Shown here piece by piece: positions 3,452 through 63,095 of a stretch of DNA of 64,000 bases. Every line of letters starts with the position of its first letter. Within the stretch, counting starts at the first letter, position 1. The notes beneath the pieces were generated by a model. It ran no database searches and was not told the DNA's origin. It was given only the letters and a program-made list of their open reading frames with translations. Both the position numbers and the translations under genes were made by a program. This stretch comes from Homalodisca vitripennis. Taxonomy: Eukaryota; Arthropoda; Insecta; Hemiptera; Cicadellidae. The stretch is taken from positions 24,103,001-24,167,000 of the forward strand of contig NC_060211.1 of assembly GCF_021130785.1 (NCBI RefSeq). The letters are read 5' to 3'.

Positions 3452-4165
3452 GTTACTACGTTGATTTTAGGTGTCATTAAACTGTAGACGTGTATATAAT
3501 TATCGAAAAAAATATAAACAATTACTTTCAGTCGGAAAATACACTTGAAAAACTCTACCGATTAGAACTTCAACTAATTTGGACTTCAGTGATTGAGGTA
3601 AACGTGGTGTTTTCGATTGAGTTAGGACGACGATTTTTGTTATCATGAAACTGTACTTATATAATTATCGAGAAAAAAATCACTTCCGGTCGGTAAATAC
3701 GAAAGAAAAGCTCTCTACAGATTCAAGTTTTGACGATTTAGGATTTCAATGGTTGAGTGTTTGGGTAAAAGTGGTACTGTACTTAGAATTGTGTTAGGAC
3801 GTTGATTTTAGATATTAATTCAACGCCGACTAATACATATATAATTATCGAGAAAAAACAATAAAACGCTTCCGGTCGGCAAATACCGAGGAAAAGCTCT
3901 ACTGATTGAGATTTTGACGATGTTGGATTTCACTGGTTGAGTAGTTGAGGTAAAAGTGGTACTTAGAATTATGTTAGGACGTTGATTTTATATATTAATT
4001 CAACGCCGACTAATACATATATAATTATCGAGAAAAAAAACAATAAAACGCTTCCGGTCGGCAAATACCGAGGAAAAGCTCTACTGATTGAGATTTTGAC
4101 GATGTTGGATTTCACTGGTTGAATGGTTGAGGTAAAAGTGGTACTTAGAATTATGTTGGAGAGTT
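3452..4165 (+). repeat. Four diverged 180-bp tandem monomers
   Basis: The block TTAGGACGTTGATTTT..ATATATAATTATCGAGAAAA..CTTCCGGTCGG..AAATAC is repeated with 180-bp spacing (clearest copies near 3795 and 3975, weaker ones near 3455 and 3625). The array ends about 150 bp upstream of the first endonuclease codons of the LINE. It could be 5' UTR promoter monomers of that LINE or sub-terminal repeats of the hAT-like element. Confidence 0.7.
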
Positions 4166-4315: not shown

Positions 4316-5073
4316 AGGATAGGACATGTAAATATCCGGTCACTAAATACAGGATTTGAGGAACTTTGCAGTGTCATTGAGGATTTCGATTTTGATGTTT
4401 TGGGTGTTTCCGAGACGTGGCTTAATCCAATGACCCCCTCAGATTGTTCAGGGTGGCTGGCTACAATCTCTTAAGAAGCGACAGAATGATGCCACAGACT
4501 TCAAAACTTCAATCCGGTGGTGGAGTCGGTATGTATGTGAAGTCCGGTCTGACTTTAAATCAGATTTTTCTTGACAACATTGACAGTCGGCTGGAGTACA
4601 TCTGTTGTAGAACTGACATAGGAAACCACAAACTTTGTGTCTGTATAGCATATAAGCCTCATGAAACTCCTTACACTTGTCTGGGTTCCTTGTTGCAGTC
4701 ACTTTTTATTGATCATGTCTTAGGTGTGGACTCAGTCATTTTGCTAGGAGATTTGAATATTAATCTTCTTGAGCCTGTTAAGGCTGAAGTGAAATATCTG
4801 ACAAATTTGTTTGGCTCTTTAAGTCTTTCTCAGTTGATAAGGGAACCCACACGCACAACAGATTCGTCATCAACACTTATTGACCACATTATTGCAGACA
4901 AAAACTTCGTTCCTAAACACGTAGGTTTAATAGACACTTCAATCATGCTTGATGCAAGGGGAAGAAAGATAACTGATCATAAGCTTGTGTTTTGTGATAT
5001 TTCTCGATACAAACGCCAAAGGGAAGCTAAGTATATAGCCTATAGAAACTTTCGATATGGAGAGTTTTATTGA
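4316..5073 (+). pseudogene. AP-endonuclease domain of LINE A (frameshifted)
   Basis: Exonuclease-endonuclease-phosphatase domain of a non-LTR retrotransposon. The N-terminal strand HVNIRSLN and the VLGVSETWL motif are read from 4316 to about 4440 in the same frame as the downstream RT. From about 4444 to 5073 the domain continues in another frame: QSGGGVGMYV, ICCRTDI..CIAYKP, LLGDLNINLL, STLIDHIIAD, ITDHKLV. These are the usual E, D/N and DH catalytic motifs. Two compensating indels near 4445 and 5060 probably disrupted an originally continuous EN-RT frame. Confidence 0.82.
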
Positions 5074-7126
5074 TCTTGCATCAAACACTAACTGGGACGA
5101 GATTAAAGAATTAAAGTGTATTAATGAAATGACCGATAAACTGACAAAAGTTATAATAAATATCTTTGACATATGTGTTCCGTTAGTTAGAAAGCGTGTC
5201 ACTAAAGATAGAGCATCGTGGCGTGACGATTACATAAAAAGACTAACCGTAATGAAAAATAAATTGAGGAACGATTATGTAAAAACAAAATGCCCCACCA
5301 TTAAACAATCTTATTGCAAATTGAGAAATAATTTAAACAATGCCATAATGCTTGCAAAGAAAAATTATTTCAAAAAAAATTTAGATCTGAAAAATCCTAA
5401 AGCTTTCTGGAAGGCGATGCGAAGAGAAGGAGCGATGAATACTGGTCAAGATAATACGAATACCTGCAAAATAACTCCAGATGTATTGAACACTTACTTT
5501 GCTCAAATGGGTGTAGGAAACACCTCAAGTACAGATATGCTTAATTTTTATAAAAATAACTCACACAGTGAAACCAGGAGTGATTTTAAATTTAGGCAAG
5601 TGAGTGAGTATGAAATAAGACAAGTAATAAACAGCATTTCTTCATCAGCTTTCGGAGTAGATGGTATATCCATCCATATGGTGAAAGGCTTAAGTCCATA
5701 TTGTTCTGGAGTAATTACTCACCTTATCAATAAATCACTGATGGATGGTTGTTATCCGACGGCATGGAAGAAAAGCGTCGTGGTTCCGCTCCCCAAGGTA
5801 CCAAATGCTTCTACTGCCTCTCAGTTTAGACCTATTTCTTTACTCCCAACTATATCAAAGGTGATGGAAAAGGTCGTGACAGAACAAATTATTTCATATA
5901 TTGAAAATGAGAAAATCGTGTCCGAAACACAGTCAGGATTCAGGAGAGGCTTCAGCACTTGCTCTGCACTTTTAAATATGGTCGATGAAGTCTGCAGGGC
6001 CAGAAATAACAAAATGTGCAGTGTCGTAGCTGCCCTGGACTACAGACAAGCCTTTGATTCGGTAAATCATGATGTCTTACTAGCAAAGTTGAAGTTTTAC
6101 GGGTTCGATGATTTGTCTCTGAGGTGGTTTTCATCGTATTTGAGAGGCAGGTCTCAAGTGACAAAGGTTGATGGTCGGTTTTCAGAATGGTTACCTAAAG
6201 CTGTAGGAGTTCCCCAGGGGAGTTGTTTGGGGCCAATTCTGTTTATTTTGTATGTTGCAGGTTTGGACAGCCAGTTAAATTTCTGTTCATTGCATGCCTA
6301 TGCAGATGATTGTCAACTCTTGCTATCTTACCATCCCTCAGAGGCAAACGAGGCTTGTATTCAGCTGAGAAATGATTTGTTAGCAGTTAGTAAATGGTCA
6401 GAAGATCACGGTCTCAGGCTGAACCCTGAAAAGTGCTCGGTCATGCACTTTGGTAAACAGACCCTAAATGCTGATATGGGAAATATTTCGCTCAATAGTG
6501 TTGATTTATTAAGGTGTGATAGGCTGAAGATTCTTGGAGTCAGCATAGACTCGGAGCTTACTTTCAATAGCCAGATTGAGTTGATACATCGTAGAGTTAT
6601 GTGCAAACTTAGGATGCTTTACAGGCTGAAGAATATTCTTCCCGAGGCTGCAAAGTTGCAACTTGTGCAGGCCCTTATTTTCCCTATAATTGAATATTCA
6701 CTTCCCGTGTTTGGTTACAGCTTGAGTCAGGAACAACTTACAATTCTTCATAGGCTCCAAAACTGTGCAGTAAGGTTTGTTTACAATATTCGTAAATTTG
6801 ACCATATTACAAGTTACCGCCGGAAAGCAAGTGTGTTAACTATTAAGGAGATTTGTAGGAGACAAACTGTCACCATAGTCCACAAGGTTCTTGACACTGG
6901 TAGACCTGCGTACCTGAACAAAAGATTGATGTTGCGGTCGGCGGTCAGGGAACGTCATACTCGGCAGGACGCCATGCTGCAACTGCCGAGGGTTCACCTG
7001 GAGAGGGGCAAGAGGGGATTCTCGTACTTTGGACCCAAGGAATACAATGCCCTACCACCTGCTGTTAAAACCCTACCCTTAAGTAGTTTTAAAAAGAAGT
7101 TAAAAGAAATTAACTTAAGTTATTAG
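5057..7126 (+). CDS. LINE A reverse transcriptase, long intact frame
   Basis: A 689-codon open frame covering the linker, reverse transcriptase and C-terminal region of a Jockey/CR1-type non-LTR element. RT motifs: PTAWKKSVVVPLPK, FRPISLLPTISKVMEK, TQSGFRRGFSTCSAL, motif A ALDYRQAFDSV (about residue 326), motif B GVPQGSCLGPILF (about 383), motif C HAYADDCQLL (about 414). The C-terminal segment ends ALPPAVKTLPLSSFKKKL. The frame overlaps the endonuclease frame by 17 bases, most likely because of an indel. AATAAA near 7230 and a T/A-rich tail to about 7260 mark its 3' end. It lies inside a hAT-like element that lies inside a mariner. Confidence 0.9.
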   Translation: MESFIDLASNTNWDEIKELKCINEMTDKLTKVIINIFDICVPLVRKRVTKDRASWRDDYIKRLTVMKNKLRNDYVKTKCPTIKQSYCKLRNNLNNAIMLAKKNYFKKNLDLKNPKAFWKAMRREGAMNTGQDNTNTCKITPDVLNTYFAQMGVGNTSSTDMLNFYKNNSHSETRSDFKFRQVSEYEIRQVINSISSSAFGVDGISIHMVKGLSPYCSGVITHLINKSLMDGCYPTAWKKSVVVPLPKVPNASTASQFRPISLLPTISKVMEKVVTEQIISYIENEKIVSETQSGFRRGFSTCSALLNMVDEVCRARNNKMCSVVAALDYRQAFDSVNHDVLLAKLKFYGFDDLSLRWFSSYLRGRSQVTKVDGRFSEWLPKAVGVPQGSCLGPILFILYVAGLDSQLNFCSLHAYADDCQLLLSYHPSEANEACIQLRNDLLAVSKWSEDHGLRLNPEKCSVMHFGKQTLNADMGNISLNSVDLLRCDRLKILGVSIDSELTFNSQIELIHRRVMCKLRMLYRLKNILPEAAKLQLVQALIFPIIEYSLPVFGYSLSQEQLTILHRLQNCAVRFVYNIRKFDHITSYRRKASVLTIKEICRRQTVTIVHKVLDTGRPAYLNKRLMLRSAVRERHTRQDAMLQLPRVHLERGKRGFSYFGPKEYNALPPAVKTLPLSSFKKKLKEINLSY

Positions 7127-7755
7127 GTAGCCACTTATGTATACTTTATTTTATGCTGTTTCAGCTTATTATGTAATTGACCTGAGTTAATTTGAAAAGC
7201 AGTTTGTAAATACTGAAATTCGCTTGAAAATAAAGTCATTATTTATTTTTTTTAAATTTATTTTAATATAGTCGTGTCAATTATACGCTTGAGAGAAGCT
7301 CTGTTTTGTTCTTTTTCTTTCTTATCCAGTGAATTCAACATCACTTTGGTGCTTTCTACTCGGCCAGAATCGAACTTCGTAAAGTTTCTGTAGCTATACA
7401 AGAAAATTTGTGGTACTAGAGTTGCTGTGAGAGTTGAATTTGCGTATTACATCTTTCCACTTTCTATAAGGCGTAGTTACTAAAGCTCCATATTTTTGGT
7501 ATTTACCTTTTACCAGTGAACTCATTGACAAATAACACACAAAACGTCCCCCGGATCCCCGGTTTCGGACCCCCCCGAACAAAATTTCTGGCTACGCTAC
7601 TGCCTTAGACGAGCAATACAGAACAAGTGACGTGGCCTATTGACAGCTGGAGTTTCGCTGCTGCATGACAATGCCAGACCCCACTCTGCCAACCAAAAAA
7701 TCTGTTGTGGTTTTTTGAAATAAAAAAACGGACCTTACTTTCCGAATTACCCTCA

Positions 7756-8234
7756 TATATTATTGATGTGTTCCTTAAAATTGAATTTTGTGTCATAAAT
7801 TTCCAAGAATTTGTACAATTTACTTCCTTAATCTTTGTTTCATTAATCATAACATAAATGTTACTGTACTTGATAGGAACATATGCCAACTAGAAAATGT
7901 TATGAAATTAGATTTTACTAGATTAGTCTTTAATTAAGATTTGATCAAAAATAGTGCATGAATTTCTTCACAAGTTTTAAATTCTTAATCATTCAATTGT
8001 TTTCACTAAAGGGGTACTGTAATCAGCATATATTGAATTAAATTTCCAATTGTTCAGGATGCATTGCAATTATTTATGTCAAGAATTAATATAAATGACA
8101 AATTTCTAGCTCTATATTTATTGAGTTCTTTTAGCTAGTCATGGTTCTAGCTACTAGCTACTTCTGTGGCAAACCACGTAAACCATGCTTTGAAGAATGA
8201 TCAGTGGTCGTAAAATCTAATGAATGACACATAC
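7756..8234. other. No gene recognised
   Basis: AT-rich DNA between the mariner right end and the first legible codons of the antisense RT relic. I see nothing clear in it. Confidence 0.5.
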
Positions 8235-10431: not shown

Positions 10432-12083
10432 GAGTTTAAAATCTTCTTTATCAAAGGACAATTTCAGCTGCATGGGTTGACGTCCCAGCCGCTCACAGAC
10501 ATTTAGAGTGTTGGTGTCAGTTAAAATCTTCATTATCAATGGACAATTTCAGCTGCATGGGTTTATGTCCCGGCTGCTCACTGACATTTAGTGTTGGTGT
10601 CAGTTAAAATCTTCTTTATCAACAGAGAATTTTTGCTGCATGGGTTGATGTCCCGGCTGCTCACTGACATTTAGTGTTGGTGTCAGTTAAAATCTTCATT
10701 ATCAATGGACAATTTCAGCTGCATGGGTTTATGTCCCGGCTGCTCACTGACATTTAGTGTTGGTGTCAGTTAAAATCTTCTTTATCAACGGAGAATTTTT
10801 GCTGCATGGGTTGATGTCCCGGCTGCTCACTGACATTTAGTGTTGGTGTCAGTTAAAATCTTCTTAATCAACGGAGAATTTTTGCTGCATGGGTTGATGT
10901 CCCGGCTGCTCACTGACATTTAGTGTTGGTGTCCGTTAAAATCTTCTTAATCAACGGAGAATTTTTGCTGCATGGGTTGATGTCCCGGCTGCTCACTGAC
11001 ATTTAGTGTTGGTGTCCGTTAAAATCTTCTTAATCAACAGAGAATTTTTGCTGCATGGGTTGATGTCCCGGCCGCTCACTGACATTTAGTGTTGGTGTCA
11101 GTTAAAATCTTCTTAATCAACAGAGAATTTTTGCTGCATGGGTTGATGTCCCGGCTGCTCACTGACATTTAGTGTTTGTGTCAGTTAAAATCTTCTTAAT
11201 CAACGGAGAATTTTTGCTGCATGGGTTGATGTCCCGGCTGCTCACTGACATTTAGTGTTGGTGTCCGTTAAAATCTTCTTAATCAACGGAGAATTTTTGC
11301 TGCATGGGTTGATGTCCCGGCTGCTCACTGACATTTAGTGTTGGTGTCAGTTAAAATCTTCTTTATCAACGGAGAATTTTTGCTGCATGGGTTGATGTCC
11401 CGGCTGCTCACTGACATTTAGTGTTGGTGTCAGTTAAAATCTTCTTAATCAACGGAGAATTTTTGCTGCATGGGTTGATGTCCCGGCTGCTCACTGACAT
11501 TTAGTGTTGGTGTCAGTTAAAATCTTCTTTATCAACGGAGAATTTTTGCTGCATGGGTTGATGTCCCAGCCGCTCACTGACATTTAGTGTTGGTGTCCGT
11601 TAAACTCTTCTTTATCAACGGAGAATTTTTGCTGCATGGGTTGATGTCCCGGCTGCTCACTGACATTTAGTGTTGGTGTCAGTTAAAATCTTCTTAATCA
11701 ACGGAGAATTTTTGCTGCATGGGTTGATGTCCCGGCTGCTCACTGACATTTAGTGTTGGTGTCAGTTAAAATCTTCTTAATCAACGGAGAATTTTTGCTG
11801 CATGGGTTGATGTCCCGGCTGCTCACTGACATTTAGTGTTGGTGTCAGTTAAAATCTTCTTAATCAACGGAGAATTTTTGCTGCATGGGTTGATGTCCCG
11901 GCTGCTCACTGACATTTAGTGTTGGTGTCAGTTAAAATCTTCTTAATCAACGGAGAATTTTTGCTGCATGGGTTGATGTCCCGGCTGCTCACTGACATTT
12001 AGTGTTGGTGTCCGTTAAAATCTTCTTAATCAACGGAGAATTTTTGCTGCATGGGTTGATGTCCCAGCCGCCCACTGACATTT
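10432..12083. repeat. 84-bp minisatellite, about 20 copies
   Basis: Tandem unit of 84 bases: GTTAAAATCTTCTTAATCAA, CGGAGAATTTTTGCTGCATG, GGTTGATGTCCCGGCTGCTC, ACTGACATTTAGTGTTGGTG, TCAG. The first copies alternate between a GGACAATTTCAGCTG type and a GGAGAATTTTTGCTG type, a trace of higher-order structure. Later copies are homogenised. There is no long reading frame. Confidence 0.95.
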
Positions 12084-12614
12084 AAAGTGTTCGTTTCAGC
12101 TTAGCCGATTTCAGAATATTCAAAATATTGAACAAATATCTCAGACCCGGATGGAACATTTATAGGTGTAGTATATTATTTGTGGACTGTAGTTCTTTCC
12201 TCCAGTGAATGTTTTACTAATACTTCAGATTTTATGTATAGGTCACACTAACTTGGAATTTAGAATGATATTTTGCTTAATGTGTAATAACCATAGTTAC
12301 TAATTTCAACAATTACATAATAAACATATTAAATATGAATATTTTACAATGATCTCTGTGGCTGAATTTGGTCATGAACATGATTCTGGTGGACAAAGGC
12401 TTTGAAGAAGACAATGTTTTATTTTGATTTCTAGAATAAGTTTCTTAAATATTTCAACTGACTAAGATAAATGCCATATATAAGGCTGTAAACTCTCATA
12501 ATTAATTATCGATTTTGAAATTGAAGTGATTTGTGGGGAGATCAGTGTGAAGTAAATTGGATTTAACATTACTTCAGTTATGATGCAAGTCTAACTCCAA
12601 AACTCTGTAATTAT
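12084..12614. other. No gene recognised
   Basis: AT-rich spacer inside the composite, between the minisatellite and the nested piggyBac. I see nothing in it. Confidence 0.5.
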
Positions 12615-12618
12615 TTAA

Positions 12619-15083
12619 CCCTTGTCAGACACACTTACCTTTCATTGCATAAAAGACACACTGGGGTGTGTGACACCCCAATTAAAATAACTGTCCTATT
12701 TTTTTAATTTTAGTAGTTCTTTTGGTAATCATATGTGTTTATAATACATCTATATTCCTTAGAATGCAAATCAGTAATTTTTAATTTAATTTAATTTTTT
12801 AAACACACATATTTTTAATTTTTGTTGTAAAATACAAAAGTTTTGCAAAAAAATAGTCAGTACAGTTTTTGTTAGTAAAAATACCTAAAAATAAAAAATA
12901 TTAGGAAAAAATCACCAGTAAATAAATAAGTACAAATTTATTTGTATTATACATTAGTAAAAAACTCCAAAAGTTACATAAACTTATCTTAGCCAGGCGG
13001 TCAAATTTTCCTAGTCTACACATTCATAAGCACAACTGAACACGGTGTTCGTCACACATTGGGGCGCTGGCATGTTGTACAGCATTGCTTAGTTTTTTCT
13101 GTCCTTGTTTCTATCACAGAAGCAACATCTTCTCTGGCGTCTTTCTGGGACAGGGATCTGCCTTTTTTCTTCATTTGGGATACCAAGAATTTCACTGATT
13201 GCGACACCGAAGACTTCTTCGCAGAGTTGTTGTCTCTAGCCTAGTTTGTAGGAATGGCTTCACTATTTCAAAAGATAGCTGCTTTAGGAACTGTCTTCGT
13301 TTCATTTTGGTGTTATCAGCTCTCATATTATATATTACCATAGCATTTATACCACTTTGATCCATCATGGCGAACCAAATTCTCATAGGCCATCGGTTCG
13401 TTCGTCTACTTACCTGAATAACTATGGCACAATTGGTCAAATGTGTCTGTACCACCTTTCGTGGTATTGTAGAATAGTATAGGCATAGGCTTCATTGTTA
13501 TGGGATCAATTTCTTTGTTTGTGTGCATTGTAGTTAGCAGAAGAACATTTTTCTTAGGTTTCGGGGAATAAGAAATCAGCATTTTGTTTGAAGTAAATGC
13601 AAACAGAGAACTATCTTTAGCTTTTGGTGCAATGAAAGAGGGAGGTATTTTCAGGCTTGTTGGATCTGAGGGTACCAACCATTGTCAGGCTGAAAATTTT
13701 GTAGCATATTGTCAAAAAGTGGAATTGATGAAAAGAAGTTATCTACTGTAATATTTCGATTTGTGTGATGAATAGGTTCACTTAGTGTCCGGACATAGTA
13801 TGATGGTACGGGTTCATTGTTGGGTGGCTTTATTGGACCAGCATATGGCAAAGCGTTGATCATGTAAGCAGTTCTTGAGTCATTTAGCATAAATATTTTT
13901 AATCCATACTTATCAGGCTTACTCCTCATATAAACCCTGAAACTACTATTACCACGATACCCAACCAACTGCTCATCTATGGTGCAATGTTCATAAGGCG
14001 GAATACAAAACCTTTTGCATTTCCTATAAACATGTTTCCATATATTTCTGATAGGTGCAAATTGGTCATTTGCCTTCCTTGCCGCTCTCGTAGCTTTGTC
14101 ATCAAAGCGTAAAGTCTTAGCCAAAAACTTGAATCTATTTAGTGGCATTGTAGCACGAAAAATCGATAAGCCACAAAACTTATTGGACCAAAGTTCATCT
14201 AAGTGTCGGTTGTTATTTTTCTTTGGACACCAGCTAAATATAACAATCCAATAAAGGCTAAAAGCTCAGTTTCATTTGTTGCATGATGATAGCTTTGGAT
14301 GTTTTGTAAAAATAAAACATTCCTACCAATTTCTTCATTTTGTCCTATAGACAACTTCTTTTAAAATATTTTTATCAATTTGAAGCAACCACATGACTCA
14401 AGTGGAGTTTTTTACCTCTTTTCCGGGTCCTTAGCACAAGGAAAGTGTGTTATCAAGTTCCTTGCCAACGGGCGGCCTCTCCGTTGAGGTTATCTTCAGA
14501 GCTCCACATGTAAACCATTTTTCCCCAAAAGAGCAGCTACATTTCTCCTCCTTTCATTTCTTTCTTCTTCTCCTTCTTCGTCTGCACTGTTCTCATCAGT
14601 ATGTTCTGAGTCCTCCTCTACATAATCCGGATCATCATCCGTATTATCACCACCAAATAAACTTTCCTCATCACTTTCAGTGTCCAATAATAAATCACGA
14701 ATTTCATCACTTCTTAGTTCAGAAGACATAAACTATTTATATTATAAATAACTCTTACAATGCAAACAGTGATAACATTTAACCTTTAAACAAGTTAATC
14801 AATACACACACTAGTTTTAAAATTATAAATAGTAAGTTTGTGAAAAACTAAAACCGTCACACAGAAGACACACTGGGGTGCAGCACACCCCAAGCAAACG
14901 TTTTCGACCTTTCCACTTGGACAATGACAGGCAGAATGGAGTAAACAACAATGGCGCCTGAGCAGCAAGGCTACCCAACTGAATTTACATGGCCACCAAA
15001 ATTTCCCTGCACCACCCACTTGTGCTGCAGAGAAAAAGTTATTTAGTGTGGGGTATTTTACACCCCAGTGTGTCTGACAAGGG
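12619..15083 (-). mobile_element. Nested piggyBac element
   Basis: Perfect terminal inverted repeats CCCTTGTCAGACACAC (12619) and GTGTGTCTGACAAGGG (ending 15083), flanked by TTAA at 12615-12618 and 15084-15087. Sub-terminal GACACACTGGGGTG..CACCCC blocks occur at 12654-12683, 14864-14893 and inverted at 15048-15075. Length 2.47 kb is normal for a complete piggyBac. It encodes a decayed transposase on the minus strand. Confidence 0.95.
13013..14729 (-). pseudogene. piggyBac transposase pseudogene (DDE_Tnp_1_7)
   Basis: Starts MSSELRSDEIRDLLLDTESD (14729), the acidic N-terminus typical of piggyBac. Then come NETELLAFIGLLYLAGV (about 14250) and MPLNRFKFLAKTLRFDDK to HCTIDEQLVGYRG and MRSKPDKYGLK (14148-13651). 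Next are KGGTDTFDQLCHSYS and, after a frameshift near 13430, VSRRTNRWPMRIWFAMMDQS with GINAMVIYN. The end is a cysteine-rich domain beginning RRCCFCDRNKD, again frameshifted. All family blocks are present in order, so this was a full-length gene, now broken by at least three frameshifts. Confidence 0.93.
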
Positions 15084-17624: not shown

Positions 17625-18749
17625 ATGCAGTATCGACATAGGAGGCATAAGAGTCACAACATCTCCCACATCTCCCAACTTACAACACATACCACAGTTC
17701 GAATTGCTGCAATACCCTGCAGACATGATGTCCCCGGGTTGAATAACCGGATAGCCTACATAAACATGGAATTGGAAAAAATTCTTTCTCAACATCTAGA
17801 TGCAGATTTTCTCCCTGTCAACATCTTACCTAGGCATATGTACACAAAAAAAGGGATTCACTTCAACCGTACAGGAAAAAAAGAATTGTCTAAAATGATC
17901 AAACACAGTATCTGCGGAGAGACCAAAATCAATACAGACAACTTAAGAACACAAATTCATGAAGAAAAACTAAATTTGTCTATGAACTCTGTAACGGGAA
18001 TTCAGGTGCTGGAGGGGGACATGGGGGAGATTATTGAGAACCTGAAAAGCAACGAGTCTTGTGCCTTTGCACATACAATCTCAGGCGACTTCCATCAAGA
18101 CAGGAGGATGACTGCAGGGGTGGCGGTTGTGTTTGCAAAGCAATTTGGAAAACCTGTATGGAGGGATTGCCTCACCAAGCATCTGGCTTACCAGAGGGAT
18201 GGTCCGCGGGCAGCGGGAGTCTACAGCCTAATAACCAAGGATAACTTCAATGACAAGCCTTCAAGGGATGATTACAACAAGGCGTTCCATGACCTTACTC
18301 ATGACTTTAAGAGTAGAACTTTTTCTACGTTAATATGCTCGCCCTTGGGTTGTGTCCGAGACCATGTCAAGATAGAGCACTTTGCCAAGAACATCAATGA
18401 GTTTCATCAGACCACAGGGGCAAAGGTGGTGGTGGTCACCAAGGAACAGTCTACTGCTCGTAGAGTATTACATCATGGACTTTCCCACGCAGTATTTGTC
18501 AGGAAGCTGAAGGAGGAGATTAAGAAGGCAGGATCTGCAGATACGCCGGCGACCAAAGACCTCGGCACCTCCCAAAGTGTTCCTGTCTCCACCCAGTCTA
18601 GTTTTAACTTGAATTCATTTCATTTGCATTGTTCAGACTTCCCGCCATTAACAGTCCCCACCAAGTCACTGCAAGCTCCCTTGACATCTGGCAAGAACCC
18701 TTCATCTTGTTTAAACTCCCTAGTACCACAGCAAACACCCCCCTGTTAA
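17625..18749 (+). CDS. LINE B ORF1: SGNH esterase remnant plus macro domain
   Basis: 374 codons from ATG 17625; an in-frame stop lies 12 bases upstream. Residues 25-90 (VRIAAIPCRHDVPGLNNRI ... GIHFNRTGKKEL) are the C-terminal half of an SGNH hydrolase, known from CR1-type ORF1s, including the His block. Residues 122-272 form a macro domain: IQVLEGD, AHTISGD, AGVAVVFAKQFG, AGVYSLITKDN.NDKPS, STLICSPLGCVRD, AKVVVVT. The nearest type I know is TARG1/OARD1 (LAHCISED, GIAVLFKKKFG, IYYLITKKR..HKPTY, MPRIGCGLD). Lys205 and Asp246 align with its catalytic Lys and Asp. A role in binding or removing ADP-ribose is inference. The C-terminus is Ser/Thr-rich and overlaps the next frame. Confidence 0.85.
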   Translation: MQYRHRRHKSHNISHISQLTTHTTVRIAAIPCRHDVPGLNNRIAYINMELEKILSQHLDADFLPVNILPRHMYTKKGIHFNRTGKKELSKMIKHSICGETKINTDNLRTQIHEEKLNLSMNSVTGIQVLEGDMGEIIENLKSNESCAFAHTISGDFHQDRRMTAGVAVVFAKQFGKPVWRDCLTKHLAYQRDGPRAAGVYSLITKDNFNDKPSRDDYNKAFHDLTHDFKSRTFSTLICSPLGCVRDHVKIEHFAKNINEFHQTTGAKVVVVTKEQSTARRVLHHGLSHAVFVRKLKEEIKKAGSADTPATKDLGTSQSVPVSTQSSFNLNSFHLHCSDFPPLTVPTKSLQAPLTSGKNPSSCLNSLVPQQTPPC

Positions 18750-21700
18750 TAAGTCCTAACCTTTCCATATCCAAAAAAACTTCTTGTTGTTCAAGTAATC
18801 CAGTATATAAAAGCCTTTCAATATTACATCACAATGTTCAACACCTTCCATCTCGTCTGGATCTTCTTGACATTTTTCTCACTGAATCAAAACCGGACAT
18901 AATTGCACTAAGCGAGCATAAGATGATAAAAGAAGAAATAGACTTGCTAAAAATTTCAAATTATGTAACAGCTTCTTATTTTTCAAGAAACCTAGGACGG
19001 GGTGGAGGTGTCATAATTTTGACTCATACAAATGTAAACTTTAAAGCTGTAGAAATCCCTTATTTTCAATCAATATTAGTAGAAAAAGAATTTGAATGTT
19101 GCTTGACAGAAATCATAAATAGTGGGTTTTCTTTCGTATTAGGATGTATTTACAGATCCCCAAATGGTTCAAACTTAAACATCTTTTTTGAAAATTTAGA
19201 AATTTTACTAGACATTTTATGTAAAAAATTTGAAAAAATTGTTCTTGCTGGAGATTTTAATGTGGGTGTTTTAGTAAAAAACCACACTTATACTAGATTT
19301 GTAAATGTTTTATCTGGTTATGGTATGAGGTATATGGTAAATTTCCCTACTCGAGTAACAGAACATTCAAAAACAGCAATTGATAACTTCATCACCAATA
19401 TAGAGCCCAATAGTTTAAATGTAATTGGGGCAATCACTCATATTTCTGATCATGATGGCCAAATAATGGAATTGTTAGATTTAGAATCAAAAAATATTAC
19501 TCTAGTTAGAAAACAAGTAAGAAAATTTGATAAAAGTAACATAGACATATTTCACAAACAATTAAGCTTAGAACTTTGGTTAGATGTCTCTCAATCTACC
19601 ATTCCCCTTAAATATGATAGTTTTTACAATATATTTAAGTATTACTTTGATGTTAATTTTCCAAAATTGTATATTACAGAAAAGTTGGATAGTAGAAATA
19701 AATGGATTAATGAGGAGTTAAAACTAAAGCAAACTGAAATAACTTATTTGGAGTCTCAATTTAGAATATGTAAAGATAACGAATTAAAATTATTAATCAA
19801 AAGTAAAAAGCAAGATCTACGAAATAATGTAATTAGTAATAAACAGTTATACTTTGAGGAAAAAATTATGAATTCAAAAAATAAGATTAAAACTACGTGG
19901 AACTTAGTAAATTTAGAAACTGGAAAACTGTCAAAAACCTACACAAACACTAAATTATTTCATCTGGGTCACTACATAACTGATCCATCTGTTATATGTG
20001 AAACATTTAATGAATTCTTTGTGAATGCAGTTAAAGATCTAGTAGTCCCAAACATTGAGCACTCGGCAAAAGCTACTTTATTAAATGTTAGTCAAGTCAA
20101 CACAAAATTTCAATTCAAAATGGTAACAGAAAATGAAATTATTGCAAAAATAATAACATCCTTCGATAATAAGTACTCTTCAGGATACGATGACATTCCT
20201 ATTACAATTATAAAGGCAGCTTTGCCTTTTATTTGTATTCCGTTAACTCATGTAATCAATCATTCCCTAATCTCAGGTATATTTCCAGATAAATTTAAAA
20301 TAGCCCGAGTTATACCTATATTTAAAAAGGGTAATTTAGAGGATGTGAAATGTTATAGACCAGTATCGGTACTTCCAGTATTCTCAAAAATTTTAGAAAA
20401 AGTAGTATATAGTCAATTTTCTAATTATCTCGAAACTAATGAGCTATTAGATAAACAACAACATGGCTTTAGGTCCAGTAAGTCTACTACAACGGCAGGA
20501 GTTGAGTTTATTGAATCAATAATTGAATCTGTTGATAGAGGGCAAAAAATAATTGGCATTTTTCTGGATTTGTCAAGGGCCTTCGATAGTGTTGAACACA
20601 GTAAGTTACTGAATGTACTTTATACTCTTGGAGTGAAAAGTACAGAATTGACATGGTTTAAATCATACCTGTCAGAAAGAAAACAATTTGTTGAAATTAA
20701 TCATTATAAAGAAAATGTAAAAGTTAGATATAAGGAAAAATATGCTTCTCGTCTTTTAACTGTTCAATATGGTGTCCCCCAGGGATCGATATTGGGCCCA
20801 TTACTGTTCCTATGCTATTTGAAAGGTCTACCTGGAATAGTATGGGGCAATGATAATAAAGTTTGCCTTTATGCAGATGACACAAACATAATTGTAACTG
20901 CGGAAAGTGAAGAGCAAATAGAAATTTCCTCTCACATTGGCTTGTCGTTGGTGAAAGACTTTTTGGACAGTAAAAATCTCCTTTTGAATTCTAGTAAATC
21001 TAATTTTATTTCCTTCTCAACAAAGCAAGCTAAGAATAAATTACGGCCCACAATATTTGTCGAAAATAAGATACTGGACCAAGTACAAGAAACTAAATTT
21101 CTAGGATTAGTTATAGATGAAAACTTAACGTGGGATGAGCATGTAAATCTTGTTATGCGCAAAACATCAAGTGGCCTTTATGCTCTAAGAAGAATGGCAC
21201 TATCATGTAACATAGAAACATTAAAATCTATTTACTACGCCTTAATCCACTCCCACATTTCTTATGGTATTTGTATATATGGCACAACAACAAAACGAAA
21301 TATGGACAGAATCTTAATCCAACAAAAACGGGCCTTAAAGATTATGCTCCATTTGAAACAATCCGACTCTGTTAAACATATATTTTCAGAATTGAAGATT
21401 TTTACAGTGTATAGCTTATATATTTTTGAGACAATAAAATTCATACTTTTAAATAATAAAACTACAATAGGGAAAAATGTACATACATATAATACTAGAT
21501 CACATCGACAAGTTGAACAACATAGATTGTGTTTTTTCGAAAAGAAAACTTCTTTTAAAGGAAACAAATTTTTTGACTGTTTACCGCAAAATATTAAACA
21601 AGAGAAAAATCTGAACAAATTTCTTAAATCATTAAAAATTTTTTTAATAAAATCTGCATTTTACTCAACTGAAGAGCTACTTACTCTAAGAAACCATTGA
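18629..21700 (+). CDS. LINE B ORF2: endonuclease-reverse transcriptase, intact
   Basis: A 1,023-codon frame without stops. AP-endonuclease (residues about 62-275): LHHNVQHLPSRLD, ALSEHK, GRGGGVIIL, LGCIYRSPNGS, VLAGDFNVG, TAIDNFI, ISDHDGQ. Reverse transcriptase: KIARVIPIFKKGN, YRPVSVLPVFSKILEK, QHGFRSSKSTTTA, motif A IFLDLSRAFDSVEH (about 645), motif B YGVPQGSILGPLLF (about 714), motif C CLYADDTNII (about 746). All catalytic residues are present. The frame opens after a stop at 18605 and has no ATG until about residue 99, past the first endonuclease motifs. It is in the -1 frame relative to ORF1 and overlaps it by at least 121 bases. Translation by frameshifting from ORF1 is therefore likely. 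Clade: CR1/Jockey group, not resolved further. Confidence 0.93.
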   Translation: MFRLPAINSPHQVTASSLDIWQEPFILFKLPSTTANTPLLISPNLSISKKTSCCSSNPVYKSLSILHHNVQHLPSRLDLLDIFLTESKPDIIALSEHKMIKEEIDLLKISNYVTASYFSRNLGRGGGVIILTHTNVNFKAVEIPYFQSILVEKEFECCLTEIINSGFSFVLGCIYRSPNGSNLNIFFENLEILLDILCKKFEKIVLAGDFNVGVLVKNHTYTRFVNVLSGYGMRYMVNFPTRVTEHSKTAIDNFITNIEPNSLNVIGAITHISDHDGQIMELLDLESKNITLVRKQVRKFDKSNIDIFHKQLSLELWLDVSQSTIPLKYDSFYNIFKYYFDVNFPKLYITEKLDSRNKWINEELKLKQTEITYLESQFRICKDNELKLLIKSKKQDLRNNVISNKQLYFEEKIMNSKNKIKTTWNLVNLETGKLSKTYTNTKLFHLGHYITDPSVICETFNEFFVNAVKDLVVPNIEHSAKATLLNVSQVNTKFQFKMVTENEIIAKIITSFDNKYSSGYDDIPITIIKAALPFICIPLTHVINHSLISGIFPDKFKIARVIPIFKKGNLEDVKCYRPVSVLPVFSKILEKVVYSQFSNYLETNELLDKQQHGFRSSKSTTTAGVEFIESIIESVDRGQKIIGIFLDLSRAFDSVEHSKLLNVLYTLGVKSTELTWFKSYLSERKQFVEINHYKENVKVRYKEKYASRLLTVQYGVPQGSILGPLLFLCYLKGLPGIVWGNDNKVCLYADDTNIIVTAESEEQIEISSHIGLSLVKDFLDSKNLLLNSSKSNFISFSTKQAKNKLRPTIFVENKILDQVQETKFLGLVIDENLTWDEHVNLVMRKTSSGLYALRRMALSCNIETLKSIYYALIHSHISYGICIYGTTTKRNMDRILIQQKRALKIMLHLKQSDSVKHIFSELKIFTVYSLYIFETIKFILLNNKTTIGKNVHTYNTRSHRQVEQHRLCFFEKKTSFKGNKFFDCLPQNIKQEKNLNKFLKSLKIFLIKSAFYSTEELLTLRNH

Positions 21701-22109
21701 AATACATTGTGCTTTTCCCCTTTTCGTTTTATTCAAAAGAAAATTGTTAATGACTACTCTAATAGAACAGGTATGAAAGTTGAAAGAAGGTGAAAACACT
21801 TAATTTTAATATTTTTATTTGTAGGCTCAATGTTTGTATGATTGTTTGTAAAACCTGTATTTAGAACTAATGTTGTTCTGGCCCGAAGAAGGCGAAAACC
21901 CCTAAACTAATCTGCACGAACCTAGTTAAGAATGTGTAATTTTGTGTATAAAGAGGTTCTTGTTTTCTGTTTTATCTCATTTGTTTTTATTGTTCACAGA
22001 CATTGTAAATGTTTAAATTAAAACCAATTACTTTGTTGACACTATTTCTTGTACGATATGTACATTTTTATGAAATAAAGATGTTTGATTGATTGATTGA
22101 TTGATTGAT

Positions 22110-22513: not shown

Positions 22514-23524
22514 CTTACTCCCATGGCCATGGATACCCTAGGTGGTATTTGGCCTCGCCAACCAGCTGCCTCCATCTCTCCCTGTCTTCACAATCCCCCT
22601 GACCCGCTCTCAATTTCCGCAAGTCCTTCTCCACCTGGTCCTTCCAGCGATTTTTGGGTCTACCTCGAGGTCTTCTTCCAATTGGATTGTGTTTCCAAAC
22701 CTCTTTAATCTATTTATCATCCTCCCTCCTCATCACATGGCCTGCCCACCGAAGTCTCTTGCTCTTTGCTTCTCCTACAACGTCTGGAGATTGAAACATC
22801 TCTCTGATTTCTTGGTTGTGCCTGATTCTCCATCCATCTCCATCTCTAATAGGTCCGAAAATTTTCCTCAACATTTTATTCTCGAATGTAACCAATTTCT
22901 TTTCTGCCTGTTTATCTATAATCCATGTCTCTGCTCCATAAAGAAGAACTGGTCTTATAACAGTCTTATATATTCTTAATTTTGTTTTGTAAGACAGTAA
23001 TTTTGATTTTAAAATATTATTCAATGCGTACATGCTTCTATTTGCCAAATTTATTCTATTTTGGATTTCTATTAATTCATTACTCTTTGAAGTAACTATT
23101 GCTCCGAGGTATTTGAATCTTTCAACCTGTTCAAATTTATGGTTCAGTATTTCCAAATCTTCTCTACCATTATTTCCTTGCCTAAAATAAATCAACTTTG
23201 TCTTAGCGTCGTTAATTTCTAGTCCTATTGACCGGGTTTTGTCTATTAATATTCCTGTCATCTCCATCAGTTCATCTCTGTCAATAGAAACTAACACCAC
23301 GTCATCCGCAAATGCCAGTGCTCCTATCTTAGTTCCAATGCTTATACCTAGTTTCCTATTTCTTATTTCTTTTAACGCTTCTTCCAGGGCTAAATTGAAC
23401 AGTAATGGAGAGAGGCTGTCACCCTGTCTCACCCCTGTTTTTACTTCAAACTCGGGTGAATATTCATTTTCCACTTTAACTTTGCATTTGGAATTTTCTA
23501 AGCTAAGTTTTGCCATTTTCGTCA
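22514..23524 (-). mobile_element. 5'-truncated non-LTR element C with 13-bp target duplication
   Basis: The insertion is flanked by the exact 13-bp direct repeat GGAATCAGCATTA at 22501-22513 and 23525-23537. It is read on the minus strand and contains only the 3' half of an RT gene, with almost no 3' UTR or tail. A 13-bp duplication fits target-primed reverse transcription followed by 5' truncation. Confidence 0.92.
22515..23516 (-). pseudogene. LINE C reverse transcriptase, C-terminal part
   Basis: Begins after RT motif A. Visible are FEVKTGVRQGDSLSPLLFNL (motif B), ALAFADDVVLVS (motif C), VERFKYLGAIVT, RPVLLYGAETW, KMLRKIFGPIRDGDGW and SKRLRWAGHVMRRED. An in-frame stop follows at about 22708, after which the family C-terminus continues as NPIGRRPRGRPKNRWKDQVE ... 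ERWRQLVGEAK to the natural stop at 22515. The GxRQGxxLSP and GHVxR pattern fits RTE-like and related clades, distinct from LINEs A, B, D and E. Confidence 0.88.

Positions 23525-24000: not shown

Positions 24001-63095
<39,095 letters not shown>

Follow-up and report, generated by a model that had tools for sequence, protein, structure and literature searches.

Our analysis of 64,000 nucleotides of the leafhopper Homalodisca vitripennis (contig NC_060211.1, positions 24,103,001 to 24,167,000 of the forward strand; hereafter the window) identifies long interspersed nuclear elements (LINEs) with a new type of first open reading frame (ORF1), in which an SGNH domain is followed by a macro domain. 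By fold, sequence and catalytic dyad, the macro domain is of the TARG1-type (ALC1-like) class. It is a regular part of many LINE families in H. vitripennis, and substitution patterns between these families indicate that it is held under purifying selection. We are almost entirely confident of this anatomy and of its conservation. The domain is probably an active hydrolase, and we propose below that it may erase ADP-ribose, a mark of DNA damage, where the element integrates.

A TARG1-type macro domain in ORF1

The macro domain of the window found its best match in TARG1 by sequence, profile and fold. In a profile search against the PDB, five TARG1 chains were recovered at about 1e-15 and were alone in falling below an E value of 0.1, the next row, which is not a macro domain, standing at 0.15. 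Pfam alone assigned no family to the ORF1 protein of the window (P0001), and the macro identity therefore rests on the sequence, profile and fold comparisons with PDB entries. A preliminary description, made from the letters alone, had read this protein as a LINE ORF1 with a TARG1-like macro domain, and this reading was borne out by significant matches at all three levels, the AlphaFold2 model being closest in fold to TARG1 (26-28% identity to the human protein in fold alignments). It had also singled out K205 and D246 as the catalytic pair; these residues do align with the Lys84/Asp125 dyad of TARG1, and, besides the dyad, motif residues around the ligand site are conserved. In the model, the part matched to TARG1 is followed by a helix (288-304) that may or may not belong to the domain. 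The ORF1 domain further differs from TARG1/OARD1 (C6orf130), an ALC1-like hydrolase, in that it sits in a LINE ORF1 and exists in many copies. Scans of viral contig and genome contig collections with the macro profile returned no relative, and a Pfam Macro search of the H. vitripennis genome returned two single exons, which, judged by eye from their motifs, look like macroH2A and MacroD exons.

The copy in the window is organized as follows.

17625..17675, plus strand: genomic flank outside the element (blastn against other copies), where a chance ATG had been taken as the start of ORF1 in the preliminary description
17676..22109, plus strand: 5'-truncated LINE copy with partial ORF1, complete ORF2 and 3' tail (blastn against L010, 99.2% identical across 17676-22109)
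17676..18749, plus strand: truncated ORF1 coding sequence, in the frame of 17625
17670..17927, plus strand: SGNH domain, C-terminal half only (tblastn, P0002 SGNH domain as query, query residues 85-170, 97.7%)
17994..18443, plus strand: TARG1-like macro domain, spanning residues 124-273 (PDB searches by phmmer and by profile; AlphaFold2 and VIA-align)
18237..18239, plus strand: K205, aligned with Lys84 of TARG1
18360..18362, plus strand: D246, aligned with residue 125 (Asp125) of TARG1
18486..18536, plus strand: extra C-terminal helix, residues 288-304, past the TARG1-matched part (secondary structure of the model)
18764..21700, plus strand: ORF2, in a frame already open upstream of the ORF1 stop codon and overlapping the ORF1 end
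18830..19264, plus strand: endonuclease (EN) domain of ORF2 (Pfam Exo_endo_phos, E 1.6e-5)
20324..21112, plus strand: reverse transcriptase (RT) domain of ORF2 (Pfam RVT_1, E 2.6e-30)
22085..22108, plus strand: 3' tandem tail, TTGA x 6

The similarity of the other copies to the window copy likewise starts at 17676, and blastn found no similarity to them upstream of this position. The frame 17625-18749 is open over 374 residues, but in a truncated copy such an intact frame says little about selection, for which it had initially been taken as a sign. Similarly, the fusion of half an SGNH esterase to a macro domain stands as far as the presence of both domains is concerned, whereas the N-terminal SGNH half is missing because of the 5' truncation. 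The element has the hallmarks of a LINE, namely, an ORF1 followed by an EN-RT ORF2, dispersed near-identical copies, 5' truncation and a short-repeat 3' tail. L010 ends in the same TTGA tail as the window copy, and L013, L016, L018, L019 and L028 have TTGAA or TTTGAA runs close to their 3' ends; a search for target-site duplications at the ends of the window copy gave 5-bp matches only, at chance level. The closest proteins to the window ORF1 are hypothetical proteins of H. vitripennis, with 98% and 97% identity. In L009, a near-identical copy, a mariner/Mos1-like transposase frame (7142-8056, minus strand; Transposase_1 4e-13, HTH_48 8e-11) lies within the SGNH region, within a few bases of the truncation point of the window copy, a coincidence of position.

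Occurrence, conservation and exchange of the ORF1 modules

A six-frame search of the H. vitripennis genome with P0001, in which 110 of 3209 candidates were scored, gave at least 113 matches, and from these we took 20 loci for long open frames and diversity. All examined loci were selected by their ORF1 match, and the counts below apply to loci chosen in this way. At every one of them (20/20), the macro domain is followed on the same strand by a match to the EN-RT ORF2, and an SGNH match above 40 bits was obtained at 19 of the 20, with none in L015. The ORF2s of these loci share 25-99% identity with that of the window in single BLAST pieces. With L023 contributing two copies, the 20 loci and the window gave 22 macro domains for analysis. 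Clustered P0001 matches on one strand were seen in C165 (73244, 99472, 125355, 159496) and C448 (80723, 97575, 117352) of G000, about 17-34 kb apart and with six of the seven sharing one score; perhaps these clusters represent a segmental duplication in which a macro-bearing LINE is included. One database protein of H. vitripennis, P0028 ('lipase 1-like'), fuses a piece of a macro domain to a lipase and is either a chimera produced by gene prediction or a LINE that has been exonised.

Both K205 and D246 are kept in 22/22 genomic macro domains. Our database set comprised 93 matched rows from 92 proteins, including four free-standing TARG1-like proteins; among the rows covering each site, the Lys is kept in 87/89 and the Asp in 82/83. 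The ratio of nonsynonymous to synonymous substitutions (dN/dS) was computed across the 22 domains; of their 231 pairs, silent sites are saturated in 158 and dS is <2 in 43. Between families, dN/dS amounts to 0.11-0.20 in 23 pairs with a dS of 1.40-1.96 (pairs from three families and hence non-independent), so that the comparison over copies does show selection; in 20 close pairs, with a dS of up to 0.104, it is scattered from 0 to 0.98. Between families, divergence is often lower in the macro domain than in the RT (39% and 55%, respectively, for the window against L014), the opposite case being the window against L028 (macro 55%, RT 48%).

Further modules occur in the ORF1s of the relatives. 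In L020, a single frame of 1116 residues contains a PWWP domain (E 5e-11), a Peptidase_C48/Ulp1 domain (1e-12), an SGNH domain (tblastn) and the macro domain, with ORF2 behind it. PWWP, SGNH and macro domains are combined in L026 and L027, and C48, SGNH and macro domains in L016, L022 and L028, the Pfam C48 match being above its cut-off in L020 and in these last three. L025 has a PHD-like finger (8.5e-5; 22.9 bits, below the cut-off of 24) ahead of SGNH and macro, and L011 has an MBD (6e-17) followed by a frame break and then by SGNH and macro. No Pfam family was found at an E value of ≤0.01 in further frames of L013, L018, L021, L019 and L010, nor a reader or C48 domain in those of L017, L024 and L012, several frames of this wider set being cut upstream. 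For the family of the window itself, an upstream stretch of the copy L029 opens with a piece resembling an MBD (E 7e-4; 19.5 bits for a cut-off of 21; frame broken), which has a second match to HTH_IclR at 0.004 and is followed by a coiled-coil-like stretch; an Ulp1-type protease was not seen in this family. Thus, the ORF1 composition given in the preliminary description is right for SGNH and macro, whereas the chromatin readers and the Ulp1-type protease of the relatives lay outside its view.

Database proteins, taken as putative LINE ORF1s by homology, extend this picture. Of the 24 proteins that the profile search listed, 12 have a precomputed PF02902 (C48) assignment, each of them together with the macro motifs; they include P0042 (MBD), P0032 (FLYWCH) and P0030 (weak PHD). 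The Gln and Cys motifs of C48 are found in 12/12 proteins picked by the His motif and the Asp in 9/12. Homologous proteins occur in other insects, as P0031 of Macrosteles quadrilineatus (PWWP, SGNH and macro) and a matching fragment of Cuerna arida; the linkage to an RT was established at the H. vitripennis loci. In the DxxH motif of the SGNH domain, 3 of 23 database proteins keep the Asp, and the others have His (13), Gln (4) or Lys (3) in its place, so that esterase activity is doubtful; this pattern suggests that the SGNH 'esterase' may bind rather than hydrolyze.

The modules have been exchanged, as concluded from the conflict between the macro and ORF2 trees and from the permuted order macro-C48-SGNH in two proteins, P0035 and P0036 (C48-SGNH-macro in the other proteins checked). 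The window and L010-L014 form a clade in the macro tree that is rejected by the ORF2 data (approximately unbiased test, p-AU 1.2e-4), and the group of the window, L010 and L028 in the ORF2 tree is in turn rejected by the macro data (p-AU 2e-6); these p-values are optimistic, the groups having been named after the other tree was seen, and both trees, of 17 rows each, have long branches. The split of the RT group L020-L027 in the macro tree was not significant (p-AU 0.112), and we do not claim it. Macro and RT distances are still correlated (r 0.68, permutation p 0.0016, 11 representatives). Between L016 and L020, identity is 68% in the N-terminal and C48 parts, 31% in SGNH and 47% in macro. Such exchange agrees with the reticulate evolution of ORF1s reported in LINEs of the CR1/L2 type (PMC4120745).

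A possible role at the integration site

LINE integration begins with a nick, and such breaks activate PARP1/2. At the integration of human L1, PARP1/2 are reported to act, about half of the retrotransposition being lost without PARP1 or PARP2 and 80% without both (PMC8535693). TARG1 is described as taking mono-ADP-ribose off Asp/Glu and off phosphorylated DNA and RNA ends and as interacting with PARP1 (PMC7050489, PMC6582358). By analogy, we propose, with a probability of about 0.5, that the macro domain is a mono-ADP-ribosyl hydrolase acting at this very place and time, during target-primed integration. The ORF1 protein would reach chromatin with the ribonucleoprotein of the element, where a reader domain (MBD, PWWP or PHD-like) would anchor it. 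The Lys/Asp pair would then remove ADP-ribose from acidic residues or from DNA or RNA ends where ORF2 has nicked the target, and the resetting of ADP-ribosylated ORF2 protein, ORF1 protein or chromatin would let target-primed reverse transcription be completed. The TARG1 match, the dyad, the dN/dS values, the EN-RT linkage and the presence of reader and Ulp1-type domains in shared frames would all support such an eraser. A wider version, which we offer tentatively and hold for somewhat doubtful, is that the ORF1 protein is a portable factor that edits chromatin marks and damage marks alike: the reader would anchor it, the Ulp1-type protease would strip SUMO or a related modifier and the TARG1-type domain ADP-ribose, host signalling would be reset at the integration site, and the modules would have been shuffled, changed in order and passed from one RT lineage to another.

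Several points weigh against an eraser at the integration site. PARP1/2 are reported to promote human L1 retrotransposition, so removal of ADP-ribose could also hinder it. ALC1-like macrodomains are described as minimal and without extensions (PMC7050489), with which the predicted helix 288-304, if part of the domain, would be at odds. Finally, the loss of the SGNH Asp in 20/23 proteins raises the possibility that enzyme folds may be kept here for binding.

Other functions compete with this proposal, chiefly a counter-defence and a reader function. The macro domain might serve as a counter-defence, as supposed for viral macrodomains, by removing ADP-ribose put on the RNA or ribonucleoprotein of the element by host PARPs or TRPT1-like enzymes; we find this unlikely, since the reader domains indicate chromatin and not cytoplasmic RNA and the sequence is TARG1-like, unlike the viral type, as is apparent from the profile search, in which no other macrodomain came close. 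Slightly less likely still is a reader function, whereby ADP-ribose binding would guide the ribonucleoprotein to chromatin that is damaged or marked by PARPs, with catalysis of minor importance. Macrodomains do comprise both readers and erasers (PMC7050489), and further reader domains lie within the same ORF1s; however, the near-invariant dyad argues otherwise, as a pure reader would not need both residues.

The conservation of the dyad and of the ligand-site motif residues also makes it improbable that the macro fold is retained for RNA binding or ORF1 protein oligomerisation unrelated to ADP-ribose, even though LINE ORF1 domains are frequently RNA-binding (PMC4120745) and the adjoining SGNH domain mostly lacks its usual Asp. 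As for the ordinary explanations, that a fragment of host OARD1 happens to adjoin a single LINE or that the domain call is spurious, the blank Pfam result for P0001 would be in keeping with them, but the recurrence of the domain ahead of EN-RT at all 20 loci disposes of a one-off fragment, and we give these explanations next to no weight.

RNA binding, coiled coils, PHD fingers and esterases are the features known from LINE ORF1 proteins. Like the Esterase-type (Type IV) ORF1 of CR1/L2 elements, e.g., ZfL2-1, those of the leafhopper have the defining coiled coil and SGNH domain ahead of EN-RT, to which they add the macro domain and the reader and protease modules; the tandem 3' tail and the SGNH ORF1 would fit, though no more than fit, CR1/L2 lineages of the Jockey superfamily. 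The C48 domain is shared with Ulp1/SENP proteases (Peptidase_C48) but is fused to SGNH and macro in the leafhopper proteins. Alphavirus nsP3 macrodomains, with 10-12% identity, are of another class by sequence. The DarG antitoxin macrodomain is described as keeping only the Lys of the dyad (PMC7050489), whereas the ORF1 domain keeps both residues; identity with DarG was rejected, as the acid is present here and the neighboring genes are EN-RT and not the DarT toxin.

In agreement with the preliminary description, we found no LINE ORF1 described with a macro domain among the open-licence PMC papers listed by our searches (titles and abstract starts; Repbase and preprints being outside this scope, an earlier note is possible), and term searches of PMC4120745, PMC3905857, PMC5408684 and PMC8496328 gave no wording on a macro-domain ORF1. 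In the parts consulted, a survey of 448 elements has esterase ORF1s confined to two groups of vertebrates, and the word macro is absent from it (PMC4120745). The link between PARPs and LINEs has so far been studied from the side of the host, with PARP1/2 and human L1; an ADP-ribose eraser under selection in many LINE families, if confirmed, would connect PARP signalling with retrotransposition through the element itself, and whether the element itself takes ADP-ribose off at the nick becomes a testable question. With their shuffled readers and erasers, macro LINEs may also give rise to fused genes that modify chromatin.

Other features of the window

EN or RT matches mark three further LINE remnants in the window, at 4444-7126 (plus strand), 22710-23516 (minus strand) and 56289-59113 (minus strand), and tblastn gave no macro match at any of them. 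DNA transposon remnants are present at 13651-14148 (minus strand; DDE_Tnp_1_7, 1.2e-29) and at 52665-53201 (plus strand; Mutator-like transposase, 1.8e-29). The window also contains tandem arrays with a 131-bp unit (24920-27629; 20.7 copies, 98% matches) and with an 83-bp unit (10436-12084; 19.8 copies), as well as smaller ones at 149-850, 3654-4157 and 39581-40025.
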